NCBI RefSeq assembly: GCF_000710615.1 | Contig: NZ_JDTH01000001.1 | Coordinates: forward strand, 868,001-932,000 | Direction: 5' to 3' | Length of the DNA stretch: 64,000 bases | From: Haladaptatus cibarius D43 | GTDB lineage: Archaea; Halobacteriota; Halobacteria; Halobacteriales; Haladaptataceae | In this document: one piece after another, positions 5,672-15,122 of the stretch | Position numbering within the stretch: position 1 is the stretch's first letter | Layout of the letters: each line of letters begins with the position of its first letter | Translations under genes and position numbers: made by a program | Notes under the pieces: model-generated | Databases searched by the model: none | Told to the model about the DNA's origin: nothing | What the model saw: only the letters and a program-made list of their open reading frames with translations

Positions 5672-6016
5672 TTACTGTAATCCCGACTGAAAGAAGGTGA
5701 GAACAATAACTGACCACAGAACCAGTCCTGCCCCATAGAAAAGCAGAATCGCACGAGCGCCAAATTCCCCCGGAGACGGAAGCAATTGCGTATCCTCGAC
5801 CATCATCCCGCTAATTTCTGCGTCTCCTGTCTCGACAGCGGATGCACCCACTGGCCCGCTCGCTGCGCCTCCGAGCACTATGAAAAGCAAACCGACACCC
5901 GTGACAACTAACGTGTAGAGTCCCGAGTAAGTCAGGAAATAGACGCCACCGACCGTGATAGCTCCCGCAAGTACAGTATAAAACGCTAATCCGCGGGCAA
6001 TAGGTCGAATGTCCAT
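5672..6016 (-). CDS. Small integral membrane protein, function unknown
   Basis: 114 residues with three predicted membrane segments (about 8-28, 31-52 and 88-110) joined by an acidic, Gly-rich loop. No family is recognised. It lies downstream of the SipW locus on the same strand, separated from it by 166 bases in which I see no gene, so membership of that operon is uncertain. Confidence 0.6.
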   Translation of the reverse strand: MDIRPIARGLAFYTVLAGAITVGGVYFLTYSGLYTLVVTGVGLLFIVLGGAASGPVGASAVETGDAEISGMMVEDTQLLPSPGEFGARAILLFYGAGLVLWSVIVLTFFQSGLQ

Positions 6017-6182
6017 AGCTGAACGTACTATTCAATCTGTATCAGTTTTGTGTTGATATTGACGTGAGCAGCCAGCGATTTACTACTCGGCCTCGGATAC
6101 AGCCTGTTGAACTCTTCTTCTGTATTCAGCACATCATTCGTATCATAGACAGAGGATTTCAACAGAGCCGAATCTCGTGATA

Positions 6183-6506
6183 CTAGCTCTTGGCGGACGA
6201 GTGCGCCGCACTCGAATTCGTCCTTTCGATAGTCGTCGTACTCTCTGTCGTCGCCGTCGTATTCTTCACACTCTCCGTCGTCGTCGCATTTTCCACAGTC
6301 GAATTCCCTTTTTCCGAAGTCGCGGTCGGGTTCGCGGCGACGACTTCGGTGGCCGATTCGGTACTCGTCCACGTTCCGGCACCGATGTCGCCGGAATCGA
6401 GCGTTTCGCTGTCGGAGAACACACCGAGTGACATATCGACTGTCGAGGCTCCAAGCGCGAGCAGTACCGCTAACACGAGAACGGCGAATTTTGTTTTTTG
6501 GCTCAT
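6183..6506 (-). CDS. Small SipW-type exported Ser/Thr-rich protein
   Basis: 107 residues. An N-terminal hydrophobic segment (about residues 7-24) is followed by LGVFSDSETLDSGDIGAGTW, which closely matches the SipW-dependent signal peptide pattern (FSDxE...GT) of TasA/CalY-like proteins. The rest is almost only Thr, Ser, Asn and Glu with many N-x-S/T sites, so it is probably a glycosylated extracellular stalk. Its ATG overlaps the stop of the signal peptidase gene (ATGA at 6503-6506), so enzyme and presumed substrate are translationally coupled. It is much shorter than usual TasA-like proteins; no downstream frameshift is evident to me. Confidence 0.75.
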   Translation of the reverse strand: MSQKTKFAVLVLAVLLALGASTVDMSLGVFSDSETLDSGDIGAGTWTSTESATEVVAANPTATSEKGNSTVENATTTESVKNTTATTESTTTIERTNSSAAHSSAKS

Positions 6507-7084
6507 CGAGTCCCCTCCACGGGTTCCGATTCGATTTCGTCCGGCGTCTCAGTTCCCTCCTCTTTTGACTCGTTCACGACCCCGAGAAGCGAGTGTGACT
6601 CAGAAATCACGAGGAGCACCGCCGGGACGATGATGAGCGCGAGAATGCCGAGTTTCGACTGGGCAAAGCTCAGCAAGTGGCCGACGAGGGGGATGTGGAA
6701 CCAGACCGCTCCGGTGACCTCGCCTGCCGACACTAACTGCTGGTCGGGTTCCTCGTTGGCGTCACCTTGGGTTTGAAACTGCGGTTCGCCGTCAGCGTGA
6801 ATCACCTCGACCACGCGGTGGGTCGTCGGAACCGAATCCTGTTCGCGCTGGAAGGTGATGACGTCTCCCGATTCGATGAATTCGGGGGCGACATCACGGA
6901 CGATGACGACATCCCCTGCGTCGATAGTCGGATTCATGCTCCCCGAAACGACGACGTAGCTGTGGTTCGCGCCGATAGCTTGCGGAAACGCGACGATGGC
7001 CATCGAAAGCACTGCAACGGCGAGCAGTGTCAACCCACCGACGTTGGCGGCCCGGCGTATCTCCGGATTAGCGATGGGGTTCAT
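6503..7084 (-). CDS. SipW-type signal peptidase I
   Basis: From ATG 7084 the protein is 193 residues with an N-terminal membrane segment (about 15-35), the catalytic serine in VVSGSMNPTIDAGD, the S26B-type histidine in TTHRVVE (His in place of the bacterial lysine), and a C-terminal membrane segment (about 140-165) before an acidic tail. It removes signal peptides at the outer face of the membrane. The frame is open upstream to 7183, but the ATGA overlap with the preceding gene (7081-7084) and the start of the membrane segment favour 7084. It is flanked by a membrane HTH gene and a SipW-type substrate, which suggests a dedicated peptidase rather than the housekeeping Sec11-like enzyme. Confidence 0.88.
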   Translation of the reverse strand: MNPIANPEIRRAANVGGLTLLAVAVLSMAIVAFPQAIGANHSYVVVSGSMNPTIDAGDVVIVRDVAPEFIESGDVITFQREQDSVPTTHRVVEVIHADGEPQFQTQGDANEEPDQQLVSAGEVTGAVWFHIPLVGHLLSFAQSKLGILALIIVPAVLLVISESHSLLGVVNESKEEGTETPDEIESEPVEGTR

Positions 7085-7662
7085 ACCGGTGGTTTTCCCT
7101 CCCTGCCGAGTCGGTTCCGCGTATCGTGGCGTTTGTGCGCGATTGCGGACGCGACGAACAGCGTCGTGACGATGAGTCCCCACGCGATGTCCGGCAGGAG
7201 CGTGAACGGAAACAGCCCGACCCCGGCAATCGCCACGAGGCTCGCGGAGAGCGCGCCGAGGCCGAGATAGTAGCTACTCCACGGAATCCCGTCGTGCGGA
7301 ACGATGTCCAAGTAGACTTCCAGTTTCGTCGCATCGTCCGTGAGACACACCGTGCCCGCGTTGGCGTCGAATGCCACGACGCCGCTGTCGTGCATCTTCG
7401 GGAGATGCGACTGTCGAATCGCCGTGTACACCCGGATTCGCTGTTTGTACGTGACTTCCGCCACCGGAACGTCGTTTTCCCACGCCGCGAGCTGTTTCGA
7501 CAACTCGTGGAGGGAGACGGAACTGCCCTGCTGGAGGAGGTAATGCATGACGTATCGCCGTCGCTGGCAACTCAACACCCGGAACGCGACATCCTGCGTC
7601 AAGTCGGTCGAATCACCGTCGAGCGATGGCGAGTGCGCCTGCTGAACGGCAGTCGCGCTCAT
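7081..7662 (-). CDS. Membrane-anchored HTH-domain regulator
   Basis: 193 residues. An N-terminal winged-helix-like domain (about residues 20-120: VLSCQRRRYVMHYLLQQG, then LHELSKQLAAWEND and VYTAIRQSHLPKMHDSGVVAFD) is followed by two membrane segments (about 130-152 and 155-175) and a basic tail. This architecture, a DUF7344-like HTH plus two membrane helices, is common in haloarchaea. It is the first gene of a three-gene operon with the SipW-type peptidase and its small cargo, so it probably controls them or senses an envelope signal. A TATA-like ATAAAAC lies about 30 bases upstream of the ATG. Confidence 0.75.
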   Translation of the reverse strand: MSATAVQQAHSPSLDGDSTDLTQDVAFRVLSCQRRRYVMHYLLQQGSSVSLHELSKQLAAWENDVPVAEVTYKQRIRVYTAIRQSHLPKMHDSGVVAFDANAGTVCLTDDATKLEVYLDIVPHDGIPWSSYYLGLGALSASLVAIAGVGLFPFTLLPDIAWGLIVTTLFVASAIAHKRHDTRNRLGREGKPPV

Positions 7663-8075
7663 CGCTCTCTATGTCCGTTCCAGCCCGTTTTATCATGGTT
7701 GTTCATTCAATAGTCACACACGTGGATGGGTGAACAGGACATTAGCTATACGCTCTCTAATCCGTTTTCTCGTCGTGGCCGACGGTGGTCTGTCCCTGCC
7801 GGAGACGGTTTCGTTTTTTCCCAACGGAAACGTATTCGCCATAATTCGAGTGCAATCGCCCCATGGCCGAGTGAAATCGTTTGCTATCAACCCTGAGAAC
7901 CGGTCGTTGAGGGCCAGAAAACACATATACTCTCTCTATGGCTCCCGAATACGTCGTCTATGGAACCATCAGCGAGTGTATATATACGCCCCCTACCGCT
8001 GAATGATGATTCGTTGTCCTCGGCCGACACGGGCTTCTGGGCGAAGTCGTCGGGCACGAGGATTACGAACCAATC
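7663..8075. promoter_or_regulatory. Divergent intergenic region of the SipW locus
   Basis: 413 bases separate the two divergent transcription units of the locus and hold no supported gene. A strong TATATATA box at about 7978-7985 points to the plus strand and would start RNA near 8010, giving a leader of about 65 bases before ATG 8076. On the minus strand an ATAAAAC box near 7690 serves the regulator gene. Confidence 0.5.
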
Positions 8076-8894
8076 ATGTCTGACAAAACGTACAACCTGA
8101 CTCGGCGAAAAGCGCTTCTCGGACTCGGCGGCATCGGTGCCGGTGCCGCACTCGGCGGCGCGGGCACGATGGCGTGGCTCAACGACCCCGAATCCATCGA
8201 GGAAAATATGATTACGGCTGGCGAACTCGACCTCAAACTCGACTGGGCGTGGTTCTACAAAGGGCGAAAATGGGAAACGGACTACCAACCGCTCGACGAT
8301 GACGACAACTTCGACGGCCCCATGATTCAGTTGGGCGACGTGAAACCCGGTGACTACGGCTGTGGCGTCATCAGCGTCCACGTCCACGACAATCCCGCAC
8401 ACGTCTGGTTCCGACTGAGCAACGCGATGGACAAAGAAAACGGACAGAACGAACCGGAGCTGAAAGCCGAAGGAAAAGACGCCGACGGAACGGGCGAACT
8501 CGACGACAGCATCCACTGGATTGCCGCTCCACTCGGCTGTCTCAAGAAACGCGAAACGGACGAAGACGACTCCATTCGCGCCCTCGGCGACCACAGGGAA
8601 CAACCGGTCGATTTGGACGAGTGGACGACGAGCGAGTCTGAAGCGAAAACGTCGGGTCGCCGTTACTGCTTCTCCAAGGGAACGCTCGCGCAGGCAATCG
8701 ACGGGTTGGGAGGCGGCGTCAACCTCGGTCGGCACGACAAAAACCACACGTGCTTCTACGGCTTCTGCTGGAAGATTCCGAAGGGCGTCGGCAACGAAAT
8801 CCAGACCGACTCCGTCTCGTTCGATTTGGACTTCTACGCGGAGCAGTACCGCCACAACGAACGTCCGAAGAATCCGTGGAAATCGGAGAACTGA
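8076..8894 (+). CDS. SipW-type exported protein, TasA/CalY-like (intact copy)
   Basis: 272 residues. The N-terminus LTRRKALLGLGGIGAGAALG plus AWLNDPESIEENMITAGELDLKLDW combines a twin-arginine-like start with a SipW-type signal (the D/E pair and TAGxLDL after the hydrophobic core). The mature part is acidic, with Cys residues at CGV, GCL, RYCF and CFYGFCW, and ends in the conserved DSVSFDLDFYAEQYRHN. TasA/CalY-like proteins form extracellular fibres in bacteria; a similar cell-surface role here is inference. The next gene is a frameshifted paralogue. Confidence 0.8.
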   Translation: MSDKTYNLTRRKALLGLGGIGAGAALGGAGTMAWLNDPESIEENMITAGELDLKLDWAWFYKGRKWETDYQPLDDDDNFDGPMIQLGDVKPGDYGCGVISVHVHDNPAHVWFRLSNAMDKENGQNEPELKAEGKDADGTGELDDSIHWIAAPLGCLKKRETDEDDSIRALGDHREQPVDLDEWTTSESEAKTSGRRYCFSKGTLAQAIDGLGGGVNLGRHDKNHTCFYGFCWKIPKGVGNEIQTDSVSFDLDFYAEQYRHNERPKNPWKSEN

Positions 8895-8987
8895 ACTACC
8901 GCGATAGCGGGCGGTGTCCGTCGAGGGCGGATTTCGTCGCTCACGAGGTTCGCCCATCACCGCCTTCACAAAGTATCCTGCTTACTC

Positions 8988-9802
8988 ATGTCACACGAAC
9001 CGCACCCGACGCGTCGGAGCGTGCTCGCCTCGCTGGCCACCCTCGGGTTCGGCGGCGCACTGGGTGTCGGTGGCGTGCTAAACATTTCGGGCATACAGGC
9101 CCGAACCGACGACCGAGCCGCAAAAACCGGTGCCGGGTTCACCGCGGACGAACTCGACCTCGCACTCGACTGGTGGGTCTTCTATCGCGGTCGCTGTCTG
9201 ACCGAAGATGAACAGCCAGCGTCCGATAACTCCGGCCCGATGATTACCCTCGCAGACCTCAAATCCGGCGATTACGGCGGGGGATGCATCGGGATTCACC
9301 TCCGCGGATCGCCCGCGCGGGTGTGGTTGAGCGGGTCGCTTCTCGCTAACGACGAAATAACCAACCGGAACCGGAGGCCGAAGTGGAAACCGACGGCCGT
9401 CTCGGAAAGGGCCACGGTGAACTCGCGGACGCGATTCAGTTTACGCTGTTCCCGCTGGGAGACTGTGATAACTGCGATGGAAAGACGGAAGCCGAGGCCC
9501 GGACGTTCGTCCGCGATTCGACGCCGGAGAACTCGCCGCACGGCGAGTTCGAACCGTTCGCGCAGGGAAGGCTCTGCGACGTGCTCGCCTCGACTTCGGG
9601 CGGCCACTTGCTTGACGATGCGCCGAAAACGCCCGGAACAAGCGGCCTTCAGCCCGGGCGAACGTACTACGTCGGGTTCCGCTGGTGGGTGCCGGAGACG
9701 GTGGACAACGAAATCCAAAGCGATTCCGTCTCGTTCGATTTGGAGTTTTACGCGGAACAGTGCCGACGTAACCCGAACCCGGCAAATCCGTTTGCGAAAT
9801 AG
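8988..9802 (+). pseudogene. Second SipW-type exported protein gene, frameshifted
   Basis: This is a paralogue of the gene at 8076-8894. The first part (TRRSVLASLATLGFGGALG, then GFTADELDLALDW and SGPMITLADLKSGDYGGGC) reads from ATG 8988 in one frame to about 9355. The homologous continuation (NQPEPEAEVETDGRLGKGHGEL, ending DSVSFDLEFYAEQCRRN, stop at 9800-9802) is in another frame. The switch lies in the A-run of GACGAAATAACC near 9351-9360; one extra A would restore a single reading frame of about 271 codons. It is therefore either a recent one-base deletion or a homopolymer sequencing error. Cysteine pattern and C-terminus match the intact copy. Confidence 0.8.
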
Positions 9803-9865
9803 CTCTTTGTCTATTTTCCGACTATTTGCCACACATTTTCGTGGCTGGACGAACAACAGTATCGT

Positions 9866-10084
9866 ATGGCATACGAATGGCAGTATTACGACCTCGTCCT
9901 GCTCGGTATCGCCGTCAGTATGTCGGTCGGGGCGGGTGTCGGATTTCTCACCTCGGTTTCGCTCCCGGTGGCGATTATCGGCGCGGGACTCGTTGCGTCC
10001 GCCATTATCGGCCACGGCCTGTTTATCAACGGCCCAGTCGATGAACCGCGGGATTTGACGAACGAAGTGGAGGCGCTGAACTGA
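9866..10084 (+). CDS. Small two-helix membrane protein
   Basis: 72 residues with two predicted membrane helices (about 10-30 and 34-54) and an acidic C-terminal tail. No family is recognised, though small haloarchaeal membrane proteins of this shape are common. It follows the frameshifted SipW cargo gene by 63 bases on the same strand. Confidence 0.65.
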   Translation: MAYEWQYYDLVLLGIAVSMSVGAGVGFLTSVSLPVAIIGAGLVASAIIGHGLFINGPVDEPRDLTNEVEALN

Positions 10085-10199
10085 GGCGATCCGACCGCGA
10101 ATTTCGACCTATCCTCAACAAAAATCCGGTTACGACGTTCATAACGGTCGCTTTATCCGGACTTCCGCGAGGTAAAACACTACCACGCAGGCCTCCGTC

Positions 10200-10631
10200 G
10201 TGAGCAGTATGTCCACACCCACGCTCCTACTGACGCATCGCCTCACACCCGACATCGCGTCCGATCTCCAGGCTGAACTCGACGACCACCTTCCCGACGG
10301 TGCCCTCGCTCGGGCGCGAACACCGGAAGAAACGTTCGAACTGCTTCCCGACGCTGTCCTCGTCAACATCGCCCGCGGCGACGTGGTTGACGAGGACGCC
10401 CTGATACGCGCGCTCCAGTACCGCCTGATTCGCGGTGCCGGACTTGACGTGTTTTCGACGGAACCGCTTCCGTCCGATTCGCCACTGTGGAATCTCTCGA
10501 ACGCGGTGCTCACCCCACACATGGCCGGTTCGACGCCGCACAAAGCGGAACGCTGGCGAGACATCATCGTGGAAAACTACGAGGTACTTGCGTCGGACAG
10601 GGTGGACGAGATGGTCAATCGAATCGTGTAG
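10200..10631 (+). pseudogene. D-2-hydroxyacid dehydrogenase with central domain deleted
   Basis: The 143-residue frame joins the N-terminus of a D-isomer-specific 2-hydroxyacid dehydrogenase (about residues 1-50, ending ARTPEETFELLPD) directly to its C-terminal third (AVLVNIARGDVVDEDALIRAL, GLDVFSTEPLP, NAVLTPHMAGSTP). The family is normally about 310-330 residues; the Rossmann GxGxxG motif and the catalytic Arg and Glu region are absent. The junction falls at LPDA, a motif found in both halves of intact enzymes, which suggests deletion between short repeats. The frame remains open, so a short protein may be made, but it cannot bind NAD in the normal way. ATG 10209 is an alternative start. 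Confidence 0.8.
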
Positions 10632-10645
10632 CCCGTCGTTTCAGT

Positions 10646-11179
10646 TCATTTCTTGCCGAGTTGCGCGAGAAACGCATCCCGTTGCGCATTCGAATCCAGT
10701 CTGATTACCGTCGTTTCCTCGTCCAACTCCGTGAATTTCCGTTCCATCGCCGGAATCTTTTCCGCGGGAAAGTTCCAGATGTAGCGGAGAAACGCCATAT
10801 CGACTTTCTCCTCGCACCCCTCGGCCATATCGGGGCGCGTCTGGCCGTAATTTCCGAGCCATCGTTTGATGACTCGGTAGAGACAGACGTACCGCGAGAC
10901 GGACAGCAAAATCACGGTGTCCGCGGCGTCGAGTCGCGCGTCGATGGTGCTTCCGTAATTTCCGTCGAGTATCCAGTTCGGTCGTTCGATGAGAGTTCGG
11001 TGCGTTTTCTCCCAGTCGTCGCTATCCGGTTTTTCCCACCCCGGTTCCCAAAAGTGGGTGTCGAGGTGCGTAACCGGTCTGTTTAGGATTTCACCCAACC
11101 GGGCGGCGAACGTGGATTTCCCTGCACCCGGCGGGCCGAGAACCACGATTCTGTTCATCGCGTTTGTTGTATCTGCCAT
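10646..11179 (-). CDS. P-loop kinase, adenylate-kinase-like (topology modulation/FlaR-like)
   Basis: 177 residues with an N-terminal Walker A GPPGAGKST (about residues 15-23) and the pattern HLDTHFWEPGW...WILDGNYGSTIDARLDAADTVILL, which is characteristic of FlaR/DNA-topology-modulation-type small kinases of the AAA_17/adenylate kinase group. It probably phosphorylates a nucleotide or small molecule; the substrate is not known. ATG 11158 (MNRIVVLG) is an alternative start closer to the P-loop. Confidence 0.75.
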   Translation of the reverse strand: MADTTNAMNRIVVLGPPGAGKSTFAARLGEILNRPVTHLDTHFWEPGWEKPDSDDWEKTHRTLIERPNWILDGNYGSTIDARLDAADTVILLSVSRYVCLYRVIKRWLGNYGQTRPDMAEGCEEKVDMAFLRYIWNFPAEKIPAMERKFTELDEETTVIRLDSNAQRDAFLAQLGKK

Positions 11180-11319
11180 CTTCGAACGGGAGCGCGAACT
11201 TATTCGACCACTGATAAGAACGTTTCGGTCGCGCGACCTGTATGGCCGCCGAACCCGTGCCCGGTGTGCATCGGCTCGACATTTGATTAGACTGCCCGTC
11301 GATTCTGGAAGGGGATAGA

Positions 11320-11771
11320 ATGTCCACGAAATCGAACACGGAACTCGTCCGGCGCGACGCTGAGGAAATCTGGTCGGAGGGGAACACCGAAGTCATCAAC
11401 GAGATATTCGATAAGGATTTGGTTCTTCACGACCCGTCGTCACCGGGCGAAGAAGGGGACGGGATGACTACCGTAAGTACGTGGAAACGTACCGCCGGGC
11501 CTTTCCCGACGCCGAGTACACGGTCGAAAAGGAGGTTGCCGAAGACGATTTCGTATCGGTTCGGTACACGGCTCGCGGCACCCACGAGGGCGAACTCATG
11601 GATATCGAACCGACCGGCGAGCGGGTAACCGTCTCCGGAATGGAGATGTATCGCGTTGAGGACGGGAAAATCGCCGAGATGTGGACGAACTACGACACGG
11701 TCGGCCTGTTACAGCAACTCGACGTGTTACCGTCACTCGACGCACTTGTTCGGGAGGCAAACGCCGATTGA
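11320..11771 (+). pseudogene. SnoaL-like/ester cyclase family gene, frameshifted
   Basis: The N-terminal part (SNTELVRRDAEEIWSEGNTEVINEIF...HDPSSPGEEGDG) reads from ATG 11320. The continuation (DYRKYVETYRRAFPDAEYTVEKEV...THEGELMDIEPTG...VSGMEMYRVEDGKIAEMWTNYD) is in another frame and stops at 11769-11771. Together they make a complete SnoaL-like protein of about 150 residues; the frame changes near 11463-11467, where one extra G in ATGACTACC would restore it. The fold is a cone-shaped alpha+beta barrel used by polyketide cyclases and NTF2-like proteins; the substrate is unknown. It is a pseudogene or a sequencing slip. Confidence 0.8.
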
Positions 11772-12438
11772 CGGTCGTTCCCCGAGAAAATCGAGGACAG
11801 GGCCGACGACTGCTTCCCAGTCCGGGCGTGCCCGACGTCCTTCGAGTCGAAGGGGTGCACCTTGTCCCGCCCCGTCGAAGACGAGACAGGCATAGCCGCG
11901 AGAGCGCCGTCGGGACGCCACAGAGGAAATACAGTTCCTCGGCAATCGAGTCGAACCCGCCGAGGCAGACGACGGTCGGAAACGATTGTTCGGAATCATC
12001 GTCGTCATCACCGCCCGTTTCGGGAGCGAACCAGTAGCCCGGAAGGGCGGTGTCTTCGTAGGGGATTTCGACCTGCTCGACAATTCTGTCGAGCAGGTCG
12101 AGCGCACTCGTAAACGTCTCCCTGCTCCGCTCGTACGTCGGACGCCGTCTCGGGTCGTCCGAACCGAGGAAAAACTCCGCGGTTCGATAGTAGTTGTGCG
12201 CTCGGAAGAATGCCCCTCGCGCGGTTTCGTGGTGTTCTCCGTCGAGTGCATCACGGGCCGTTTCGGCGACTCGGTCGGCGGTTCGCCGTCATTCGATAAA
12301 CCACTCCTCGAAATTTCCCTCGCCGATGTTTTCGACCGTAGTCAGACATTCGCCCGATTCGGCCCCGCCGTAAGTGGCGTAACTCATCGCCCTGAGCGTC
12401 TGGTAGTCGAAGGTGGCATCCTCGAAATGGACGTTCAC
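11772..12438 (-). pseudogene. Alpha/beta hydrolase remnant with stop, frameshift and 3' truncation
   Basis: Reading the minus strand from a GTG at 12438 gives VNVHFEDATFDYQTLRAMSY...GNFEEWFIE, a TGA stop, then the same frame continues RRTADRVAETARDALD...AHNYYRTAEFFLGSDDPRRRP...PGYWFAPETGG...PTVVCLGGFDSIAEELYF. After about 11900 the frame shifts to RGYACLVFDGAGQGAPLR...RPDWEAVVGPVLDFL. This order matches 2,6-dihydropseudooxynicotine-hydrolase/FrsA-like alpha/beta hydrolases of about 380-400 residues. The nucleophile elbow and the rest of the catalytic domain are missing: homology ends where the convergent SnoaL-like gene ends. Confidence 0.75.
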
Positions 12439-12572
12439 ATGCTATAGACGGGGTGGAAGACGATAGTCGATTCTCGGATGGTCAGTCGTCCGGCACAACA
12501 GTTACATACGACTTTTTATTCTCAAAAGCAACCGAAAACCGATTTCAGCTCGAAACCTCGTGAATGGGCAGT

Positions 12573-14087
12573 TCAGTAGACCGAGTCTCTGATGTCTTCG
12601 TCCAAGTCGTCGAACGTATCGAGATGTACCTGCCGTTCGGTGCGGAGGTTCTCCAGTTCGGCCTCGTAGTCGGTGACGTTGTCGGCAACGCCAAACTCTT
12701 CGATGTCGATGCCGGGCACCGAACTCGGAACCGTAAGCCCCGTCGCGTCGTCCGTCGTCCATTCGACGGTGTCACGGGCGATTTCTCGTAGCAGGGTTAC
12801 CGATTCGGTGACGCCAATGTCCTTGCCGCCGAGGTGGCCCGTGTTGAGGACGAAACAGTCTACGCCGAGGTCGTCGATGAGGTTTCGGAAGCGGTTTCCT
12901 TCCTCGCCTTTCGACCCGACGATGAACGGGTTGGTGCCGACCACGCGGATGGATTCGCCAGCCTTCGACGGGTCGCCAGCGCTGGTTTCGATGGATTCAC
13001 CGAGCATGAACGCCACGGCGGCCTCTTTCGAGGTGAGTTTGGCGACCGGCGGCATGACGGGATTGCGGGTGATGAAGAACACTTGGTCAACCCCATCAAG
13101 GTCGATGTCCTCACCCGAAGACGAGAGATAGTCGCGGAGGATGATTGCCCGACCGTTCGAGGTGTGGCGGTCGCTGTCAAAGTCCACGGTGCCGTCGTCC
13201 GCCACGTCCACGTTTTCGAGGACTGCGGAGTCGTGGGTCACGGCGTCGTACATGGCAGGCTGTTCCTCTGCATCGAGTCCGATAGTTTTGACGTACAGAC
13301 CGTTGCCTTCACTGCCCGCGATGGAGCCGTCGGGGAGGAGGGCGCACACGTCGTCTTGAAGCATCGTCGCCGTCTCGCCCTCGTCCTCGTTGAGCCAGAG
13401 GCCGTGAGCGGTCAGCGTCGATTTGCCGGTCGCGGAGAGGCCGAGGAACGCCTGTCCGACGTTTGTTTGCTCGCCGTCGTCGTCGCGGAGCGTGACACGC
13501 TTGCTTCCCGCGTGGAGGCCGAGGCCGCCCTTTTGCTTGGCGTGGAACATGAACAAACGGAGGAACGACTTTTTCGCCTCGCCGGTGTAATCGCTTCCGA
13601 GAACCGCAGTGAGACCTTCTTCGGGAAGGATTCGAACCGCGATTTCGTTCCATTCCGGAATCTGGACGGTGACGAAATCCGGTTCGCCCTCTCCCTCAGC
13701 GGGTTCGAACAATTTCGCCCATGCGAGGGCGATGCGACCGTACTCCTTCGGAACGTACAATCTGCATCGGTAGGAGTGCTCGGCATGGCGGCCCATCTGC
13801 CGGTCGATACAGAGGATTTCTTCTTCCTGTGCGTAGTCGAGTGCGTCTTGTATATGTCCGTAATCCTCTGAACCAAATCCATTGTCTATCGCGTTTTTCG
13901 TTTTATCCGAATTGCGCGAGCGTTCTCTGCTCACGTAGGACGGGGAACCGAACTCCGCCGTGGTTTCGAGCTCGCGCGAAAATTCGCGTAGCTCTTCAAG
14001 TGACGGATTGTAGATGACATTGTCTGCCTCTACCGGATTAGGGAGCGTCTCTTTCAGGGGTCGGACTGCCTGCCCACTGTCTGACAT
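12573..14087 (-). CDS. pckA: Phosphoenolpyruvate carboxykinase (ATP)
   Basis: 504 residues from ATG 14087. It converts oxaloacetate and ATP to PEP, CO2 and ADP, the entry step of gluconeogenesis. The kinase-specific P-loop is seen as GLSATGKSTL, followed by the metal/oxaloacetate region MLQDDVCALLPDGSIAGSEGNGLY. The KGGLGLHAGSKR stretch and the C-terminal NTGHLGG region also fit the ATP-type family. The frame is open upstream to 14117, but a TATA-like CATAATTATG near 14117 lies 25-30 bases before 14087, so a leaderless transcript from 14087 is likely. Together with malic enzyme (38574-40832) it connects the TCA cycle with glycolytic intermediates. Confidence 0.9.
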   Translation of the reverse strand: MSDSGQAVRPLKETLPNPVEADNVIYNPSLEELREFSRELETTAEFGSPSYVSRERSRNSDKTKNAIDNGFGSEDYGHIQDALDYAQEEEILCIDRQMGRHAEHSYRCRLYVPKEYGRIALAWAKLFEPAEGEGEPDFVTVQIPEWNEIAVRILPEEGLTAVLGSDYTGEAKKSFLRLFMFHAKQKGGLGLHAGSKRVTLRDDDGEQTNVGQAFLGLSATGKSTLTAHGLWLNEDEGETATMLQDDVCALLPDGSIAGSEGNGLYVKTIGLDAEEQPAMYDAVTHDSAVLENVDVADDGTVDFDSDRHTSNGRAIILRDYLSSSGEDIDLDGVDQVFFITRNPVMPPVAKLTSKEAAVAFMLGESIETSAGDPSKAGESIRVVGTNPFIVGSKGEEGNRFRNLIDDLGVDCFVLNTGHLGGKDIGVTESVTLLREIARDTVEWTTDDATGLTVPSSVPGIDIEEFGVADNVTDYEAELENLRTERQVHLDTFDDLDEDIRDSVY

Positions 14088-14177
14088 CGTACTAATGAGG
14101 CCGGCATAGACGACCATAATTATGCACGGTTTACACCGGCCTTAGTGGTGTCATAACACGCTTTTTAGCGGATTTTG

Positions 14178-14291
14178 GATTTCGGAAGTGAGTAAACATT
14201 TGTGGATTTTTGCCGTACAAGCGCAGTTCAGGCAGTTCTATTGCACACTATTCACACCCCGGAAGGCCCTGCCTGATTCACTTCCGAAATC
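14178..14291. repeat. 114-bp element with perfect 14-bp inverted ends (MITE-like)
   Basis: GATTTCGGAAGTGA at 14178-14191 is repeated in inverse orientation at 14278-14291. The 16-base sequence TGATTCACTTCCGAAA of the right end (14274-14289) recurs exactly at 51593-51608, far away in another intergenic region. A small non-autonomous mobile element or an insertion sequence scar would explain both observations. No target duplication was recognised. Confidence 0.45.
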
Positions 14292-14436
14292 GGTTCTTCA
14301 TCCGCCTCCAGCACCGATTTCAGTTCGCGTAGTTCCTTCCGAAGTTGTCGCGCCATCAGCCACTGCATAACCGGCCTGAACACGGTGAACATGAACTCCG
14401 TAAATCGACCATCTGCTTCAGTTGTCTATACTGTCG
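14252..14436 (-). pseudogene. C-terminal remnant of an SRPBCC (polyketide cyclase-like) protein
   Basis: The minus-strand frame reads DGRFTEFMFTVFRPVMQW, then LMARQLRKELRELKSVLEADEEP, and stops at 14252-14254. The FRPVMQxLMxxQLxxELxxLKxxLE pattern is the C-terminal helix seen in haloarchaeal SRPBCC-fold proteins. The upstream part of the domain is missing (a stop lies just before), and the last residues are encoded by the right end of the short inverted-repeat element, so an insertion or deletion event probably destroyed the gene. Confidence 0.45.
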
Positions 14437-14516
14437 GTTGTATCCCGGAGCCATGGCTTTCGGAGACGTAGTACGCTGAAAGAAATAAGGTGACGCTATA
14501 TCGCCTGTGCGAAATT

Positions 14517-14711
14517 TTAGCTACGAACGACGTTCGTCGCGCGTGGTCCTTTTGGTGCCTGTTCGATATCGAATTCGATTTCCGTACCTTCCGTCAGATC
14601 CTCACCGCCAACGTCTTCCATGTGGAAGAACACGTCGTCGTCAGCATCCTCAGTCGAAATGAAACCGTAGCCGCCTGTGTCGTTGAAGAAATCAACTTTA
14701 CCGTTTGCCAT
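14517..14711 (-). CDS. cspA: Cold-shock domain protein
   Basis: 64 residues from ATG 14711, MANGKVDFFNDTGGYGFIS. The two RNA-binding motifs are present: RNP1 (GGYGFIS) and RNP2 (VFFHM, shifted from the usual VFVHF by family variation). It binds single-stranded nucleic acid as an RNA chaperone in the cytoplasm. The upstream ATG at 14720 is possible, but the family starts at MAxGxVxFF. Confidence 0.92.
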   Translation of the reverse strand: MANGKVDFFNDTGGYGFISTEDADDDVFFHMEDVGGEDLTEGTEIEFDIEQAPKGPRATNVVRS

Positions 14712-15122
14712 TACAATCAAATACTGATGAGGGACACGGTTAAGGGTTCCGCATTCGTTTTCAAAACAGGATTTTTACTGTACGAATGTACTGATTAATG
14801 GGCTTTGGATGGCCATTTGGTTATCATTGAGAGGTTTTACGTTGATATACTGCTCTATCCGACACAACGAAGGGAAAATTCCGTACTATCCACAGCTTTC
14901 ATCTCGATACTGTGCCATGTTCTTGTTTCTCACTACTGACCAGCTTCGAAACGATAGTCTCGTGCTTTCGTAATCGGGTGGCCTCGGCACTCATAGGGTT
15001 CGTCACCACCAGCCGCCAGACTAGCTCGGAACGCCTGTTTTCGTCATCGGCCATGCCACGCTACACACCGGAGGGCAAAAAGTCACGCCAAAACACTTGC
15101 CGCCAGCCACCTTCTATCTCCC
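14712..15122. other. Gene-free gap
   Basis: About 410 bases between the divergent cold-shock and flavin-fold genes. I see no credible coding frame, tRNA or repeat. It is AT-rich close to 14721-14900 and must hold the promoters of both neighbours. Confidence 0.5.

Follow-up and report, generated by a model that had tools for sequence, protein, structure and literature searches.

The 64,000-nucleotide stretch of Haladaptatus cibarius D43 analyzed here (the window; contig NZ_JDTH01000001.1, positions 868,001 to 932,000) contains a locus in which a SipW-type signal peptidase gene lies next to the gene of a TasA-like secreted cargo, and this locus is part of a conserved haloarchaeal module. TasA-type fibers hold bacterial biofilms together, Bacillus SipW processes TasA, the matrix fiber protein, and bundling pili related to TasA are known in hyperthermophilic archaea. 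On the minus strand, the genes run in the order DUF7344 gene (P0001), peptidase (P0002), and small secreted protein (P0003), and both junctions are ATGA start/stop overlaps, indicating translational coupling. An earlier note on this DNA had described a membrane helix-turn-helix gene, a SipW-type peptidase, and a small FSDSE protein in one coupled operon, a description that the family matches (PF24035, TIGR02228) and the overlaps bear out. Its count of three cargo proteins has to be revised, as the locus encodes one large intact cargo (P0005), one that is frameshifted, and one small protein (P0003) that is different in kind. The note also had two large cargo genes sharing the divergent promoter region. 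P0005 does adjoin this region; the second gene is broken and stands in tandem behind P0005 with a 93-bp spacing, so that P0005 alone is adjacent to it. The features are collected in Table 1.

Table 1. Features of the locus, with positions numbered from the first nucleotide of the window.
Feature	Position	Strand	Remarks
P0001, DUF7344 protein, 193 aa	7081..7662	-	Pfam PF24035; first operon gene, putative regulator
P0002, SipW-type archaeal signal peptidase I, 193 aa	6503..7084	-	TIGR02228; two hydrophobic terminal segments
P0003, small secreted protein, 107 aa, candidate TapA-like partner	6183..6506	-	Sec-like leader, FSDSE...AGTW, low-complexity T/S/N/E/A tail
P0005, TasA-like cargo, 272 aa	8076..8894	+	twin-arginine leader, SipW-type cleavage region, KPGD and EIQTDS...AEQ motifs
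Second TasA-like cargo gene	8988..9802	+	frameshifted near 9345-9365 (pseudogene or sequence error)
Divergent intergenic region between operon and P0005 cargo, 413 bp	7663..8075	.	
TATA-like element GTGTATATATAC	7976..7987	+	upstream of P0005 cargo, conserved
Imperfect dyad ATAC-N3-GTCTATG	7949..7962	+	candidate regulator site (weak lead)
P0004, membrane open reading frame	5672..6016		downstream of operon

P0005 matches TIGR04088 ("cognate SipW") above the cut-off. The profile A2, headed by P0005, was built from 38 haloarchaeal cargos, taken from 62 non-redundant cargos of 150-330 aa with divergent-leader cargos and some long ones left out. It reaches TasA over the mature domain (8aur, E 5.6e-11; 5of1, E 6.4e-11) and gives weak matches to the archaeal fiber protein AbpX (E 0.005 and 0.053). 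The AlphaFold model of P0005, made from 53 sequences, has a mean predicted local distance difference test score (pLDDT) of 76 and a predicted template modeling score of 0.74. When this model is used in Foldseek, TasA 8aur is the top match (E 1.1e-4) and the sole one below 0.001, and VIA-align likewise places TasA first (5of2, Z 7.9), with the first unrelated chain at Z 6.5 and the Pyrobaculum bundling pilus 7ueg at Z 6.4. The AGxLDL and KPGD motifs are kept in the cargos, as are a Q-rich C-terminal strand region and an N-terminal segment resembling that of TasA. Judged by profile and predicted fold, the P0005 cargo is a homolog of TasA and of the archaeal bundling pilus. TasA undergoes donor-strand assembly according to PMC9674648, and ABPx of Pyrodictium is presented as a donor-strand fiber in PMC11952670.

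The main new point, overlooked in the earlier note, is that the haloarchaeal TasA-like cargos carry a twin-arginine translocation (Tat) leader, which sets the system apart from TasA. Of the 205 haloarchaeal cargos whose N-terminus was matched, 204 have an arginine pair before the hydrophobic stretch (194 by a stricter pattern), and P0005 itself has TRR at residue 9; outside the haloarchaea, the pair is found in 1/30 homologs, drawn from 10 loci of the same phylum and 3 of the candidate phyla radiation (CPR). These counts omit 20/225 haloarchaeal cargo open reading frames and 2/32 non-haloarchaeal matches with an unmatched N-terminus, and the small P0003-type proteins, which do not have the pair, stand outside the 205. 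The cargo profile was seeded with a twin-arginine protein; the A2 profile nevertheless retrieves homologs that lack the pair. The single exception among the 205 is a short cargo-like open reading frame in Halomicrococcus (L019), where positions 9855-10382 hold this frame and a second SipW-type peptidase directly beyond the main cargo. In three CPR loci from metagenome-assembled genomes of Campbell-, Shapiro-, and Buchananbacteria (L177, L184, L185), a TasA-like cargo with a leader of the general secretory (Sec) type adjoins a SipW-type peptidase, and no DUF7344 gene is present. Judged by its leader, P0005 is probably exported via Tat. This pathway exports folded proteins, and haloarchaea rely heavily on it for secretion, according to PMC12186497; a rerouting of the cargo to Tat therefore fits their biology. 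The leader of a solved "Pilin" (9p0a) resembles that of the cargo (RRNVLVGLGT-like, E 0.12, with the match confined to the leader), and by this leader archaeal pili with a twin-arginine leader or Tat export may already be known. Literature searches, whose coverage left out most subscription papers and all of bioRxiv, returned no Tat-exported donor-strand archaeal pilus.

The leader would be cut by P0002, which scores above the cut-off for archaeal signal peptidase I (TIGR02228, E 1.2e-31) and below that of the SipW model (NF046067, E 6.9e-32, 110.5 bits against 190). By these family scores, P0002 is a relative of the SipW type and not Bacillus SipW itself. It contains SGSM, THR, and GDAN motifs, which we take to have catalytic roles. 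Across 68 peptidase open reading frames, the His and GDxN patterns are found in all 68, and 14 lack SxSMxP, a simple pattern for the catalytic serine. Elsewhere in the genome lie three more signal peptidase frames of 256-267 codons, each with an SGSM motif, so P0002 is not the only signal peptidase of the cell.

Peptidase and cargo are inherited together. Among 293 genomes of the order, 105 have both, 4 the peptidase only, 5 the cargo only, and 179 neither, when a P0002-like peptidase is counted at E<=1e-25 (109 genomes) and a cargo by TIGR04088 (110 genomes); the Fisher P for this co-occurrence is 1.2e-67, uncorrected for relatedness. The cargo is rare without the peptidase, and the five cargo-only genomes hold weaker peptidase matches (2.7e-9 to 3.4e-17). 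Within the genus of the window, represented by nine genomes, both are found in four (G000, G001, G007, G008) and neither in another four, and the remaining genome (G005) has the cargo with a weaker peptidase match (3.2e-14). The gene neighborhood was followed in 66 sources, a non-random sample made up of the window and 65 loci (the highest-ranking peptidase matches and G001), in which the cargo profile finds 225 open reading frames in 65/66 sources. DUF7344 occurs in 39/66 of these loci, where the DUF7344 density of the respective genomes would predict 4.5, and in 34 of the 39 the gene lies within 500 bp of the peptidase or cargo. Of the 70 haloarchaeal loci in a second set, chosen by cargo pattern alone, 68 carry DUF7344, with 122 copies over 1.22 Mb, and 61 have the peptidase; the three CPR loci have cargo and peptidase and no DUF7344. 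The check proposed in the earlier note, whether cargo, peptidase, and helix-turn-helix gene stay together in haloarchaea, thus has a positive outcome, and the note's view of the locus as an archaeal counterpart of a biofilm fiber system holds as far as homology and gene association go.

P0001 matches PF24035 with E 1.9e-27 (95.9 bits, gathering cut-off 27.8) and has a hydrophobic stretch at residues 132-175. Its AlphaFold model (pLDDT 85) shows a helix-turn-helix domain with a two-strand wing and, C-terminal to it, two long helices. DUF7344 is a large regulator-like family, with up to 73 copies in the genome of a relative. When 64 DUF7344 domains are placed in a tree, those of the 13 genes from peptidase operons make up one side of a branch, with a support of 86 in the Shimodaira-Hasegawa-like approximate likelihood ratio test (SH-aLRT; a quick method). 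None of 500 label shuffles gave a value as low, and 15 further copies from the window genome lie outside this group; P0001 groups with 5 other operon copies with a support of 97. As judged from this tree, the operon DUF7344 genes are a dedicated lineage, in line with the suggestion that the helix-turn-helix gene is specific to the system.

The small operon partner P0003 has no twin arginine; its leader looks Sec-type, and the FSDSE...AGTW segment is retained. Its 60-residue C-terminal tail is 80% T/S/N/E/A and holds four N-glycosylation sequons, and the protein has no family match in NCBIfam or Pfam. A similar small gene follows the peptidase in 23/66 sources, and in most of these cases the 4-bp overlap recurs. 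In Bacillus subtilis, the tapA and sipW codons overlap, and residues 44-57 of secreted TapA alone suffice for a proper biofilm, according to PMC10151520; these two points lead to a TapA-like reading of P0003, which perhaps acts as an initiator, by analogy and not by homology. The resemblance of P0003 to TapA lies in gene position, overlap, and the FSDxE segment only.

Upstream of the lead cargo, GTnTATATATA is invariant in 11/11 aligned loci, which are 11 of the 13 DUF7344-peptidase operon loci; L057 and L085 are outside the alignment, and L057 has only a partial TATATAC match. The TATA-like element of the window would be expected there 0.01 times by chance, and its CCC-extended form is present a single time in the genome; the strict extension TATATACRCYCC stands upstream of just 2/205 cargos. 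About 20 bp upstream of this element lies an imperfect dyad that recurs in the nearest relatives. It is enriched, yet present in few leader regions and weak overall, and we regard it as a weak lead to an operator, a candidate site for the regulator.

Taken together, we read the locus as a haloarchaeal module of the TasA/bundling-pilus type, with Tat export, SipW-type trimming, a fiber formed by strand donation, P0003 as starter or cap, and a DUF7344 regulator, and we assign this reading a probability of roughly 0.6. P0005 would fold in the salty cytoplasm and then leave by Tat, with the uncut leader tethering it until the peptidase cuts at the TasA-like site. The cut would free an N-terminal stretch that corresponds to the donor strand of TasA, and the freed subunits would polymerize by strand donation. 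P0003, which has an FSDxE donor-like segment and lacks a folded body, would exit by Sec and might, like TapA, start or cap the fiber. Regulation would fall to the DUF7344 membrane protein as a regulator dedicated to the module, probably at the divergent promoter, and the fiber might serve at the cell surface, in cell-cell contact, or in biofilms. More tentatively, and as a possibility that we ourselves hold in some doubt, the fiber may be a donor-strand polymer of Tat-exported subunits that are already folded (self-complemented), with a Sec-exported starter peptide and one peptidase that unmasks the donor strand. DUF7344 would then tie transcription to the state that the system has at the membrane, and haloarchaea would have adapted to high salt by switching an ancestral Sec-exported TasA system to Tat, the uncut leader blocking polymerization inside the cell.

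Several observations weigh against this module reading. P0005 alone gives no meaningful match in the PDB, and neither it nor a profile of P0005 and its nearest kin (A1) reaches TasA there by sequence; the only matches of A1 are the 9p0a leader (E 0.12) and sialoadhesin (E 1.3). In the structural comparison, the Z of 7.9 is below 8, and such values can reflect a common arrangement and are not decisive alone; the P0005 model also has pLDDT <50 up to residue 39, a region that comprises the leader and the donor segment. The small partner has no TapA homology detectable in the NCBIfam and Pfam searches, with no direct comparison to TapA made. Foldseek searches with the P0001 model are led by winged-helix regulators (YodB and HlyU, with the haloarchaeal RosR lower), all at E >0.001, so a DNA-binding role of P0001 is likely as a prediction. 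Finally, 27/66 loci have no DUF7344 within the stretch covered, and the cargo gene beside P0005 is broken.

Among other explanations, the cargos could be TasA-fold surface proteins that no longer polymerize, namely Tat-exported, SipW-trimmed monomeric adhesins or surface decorations. Cargo sizes are widely spread (<200 to >700 aa), some proteins of the larger clusters are annotated with a von Willebrand factor A (vWA) domain, Tat handles folded proteins (PMC12186497), and the fiber itself is here drawn from sequence and model. The retained TasA-like segment, motifs, and strand region speak against such a loss, as does the co-inheritance with the cargo of the peptidase that would free the N-terminal segment, and we consider this explanation unlikely, if a serious one.

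A second possibility is that the locus is a decaying or strain-specific remnant. The two halves of the second cargo gene match P0005 in different frames, and the gene has no SipW-type leader recognized in the family-model search; an intact close ortholog was not found, the best matches reaching ∼41% for the first piece and 35-45% over long stretches for the second. From the sequence, its frameshift may be that of a real pseudogene or a sequence error. Together with this frameshift, the four of nine genus genomes that have neither cargo nor peptidase and the two stop codons in the peptidase match of G001 would suit decay. Against it speak the intact peptidase, P0005, DUF7344, and small genes with their coupled starts, and the conservation of the promoter element; we consider a remnant distinctly improbable.

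It is also conceivable that the DUF7344 gene is a chance neighbor or serves other genes, leaving the module with no dedicated regulator. The window genome has 38 DUF7344 copies in 3.9 Mb, the loci that lack the gene would fit, and no description of the function of the family was found in the literature searched. We give this little credence in view of the excess over expectation in the 66 loci, the near-constant presence of DUF7344 in the independent set, and the single lineage in operon position. That the cargo is a camelysin-type metalloprotease is hardly credible, since the match to Pfam M73 is weak (E 0.0091, not reaching the cut-off) and spans only residues 22-56, the leader region, and TasA homologs themselves go by the camelysin name (PMC10151520).

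As in the tapA-sipW-tasA operon of Bacillus subtilis, a SipW-type peptidase here adjoins a TasA-fold cargo, matched by both profile and fold, and the small partner gene has a start/stop overlap with the peptidase gene. The haloarchaeal system differs in the Tat-type leader of its cargo, in the DUF7344 gene of its operon, and in a small partner that lacks detectable TapA homology; the regulator of Bacillus tasA is SinR according to PMC9674648. AbpA of Pyrobaculum calidifontis (7ueg) and AbpX are archaeal TasA homologs like the cargo, by the fold score and the weak AbpX profile match, but belong to hyperthermophiles, unlike the haloarchaeal module. The system is therefore a haloarchaeal variant of the TasA/archaeal bundling pilus kind and not a new category. 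Homologs on haloarchaeal plasmids are named "SipW-dependent-type signal peptide-containing protein" (TIGR04088) by the Prokaryotic Genome Annotation Pipeline, a leader-based name for which the literature searched describes no system or function; searches for SipW in haloarchaea or Haloferax and for TasA in haloarchaea likewise returned nothing relevant. Since the name exists, the signal class is known and the system is not. Across the haloarchaea, the TasA family is found here with another export route, a DUF7344 member of its own, and a minimal partner, which raises questions testable in genetically tractable organisms, namely whether donor-strand fibers assemble from Tat-exported subunits, what DUF7344 proteins do, and what purpose such fibers have in haloarchaeal biofilms or cell contact.

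At the left end, which the earlier note had included in the locus, P0004 is an unrelated open reading frame: it has no family match in NCBIfam or Pfam, and its own profile matched P0004 alone among the 66 sources, with no homolog in the 65 related loci, so we rejected it as a part of the module. A viral origin was also set aside, as a scan of viral contigs with the A1 profile gave no relative. In larger haloarchaeal clusters (L249, positions 11013-14799; L250, positions 9001-10533), genes annotated as vWA-domain proteins stand among the SipW-type cargos and are possible tip adhesins.

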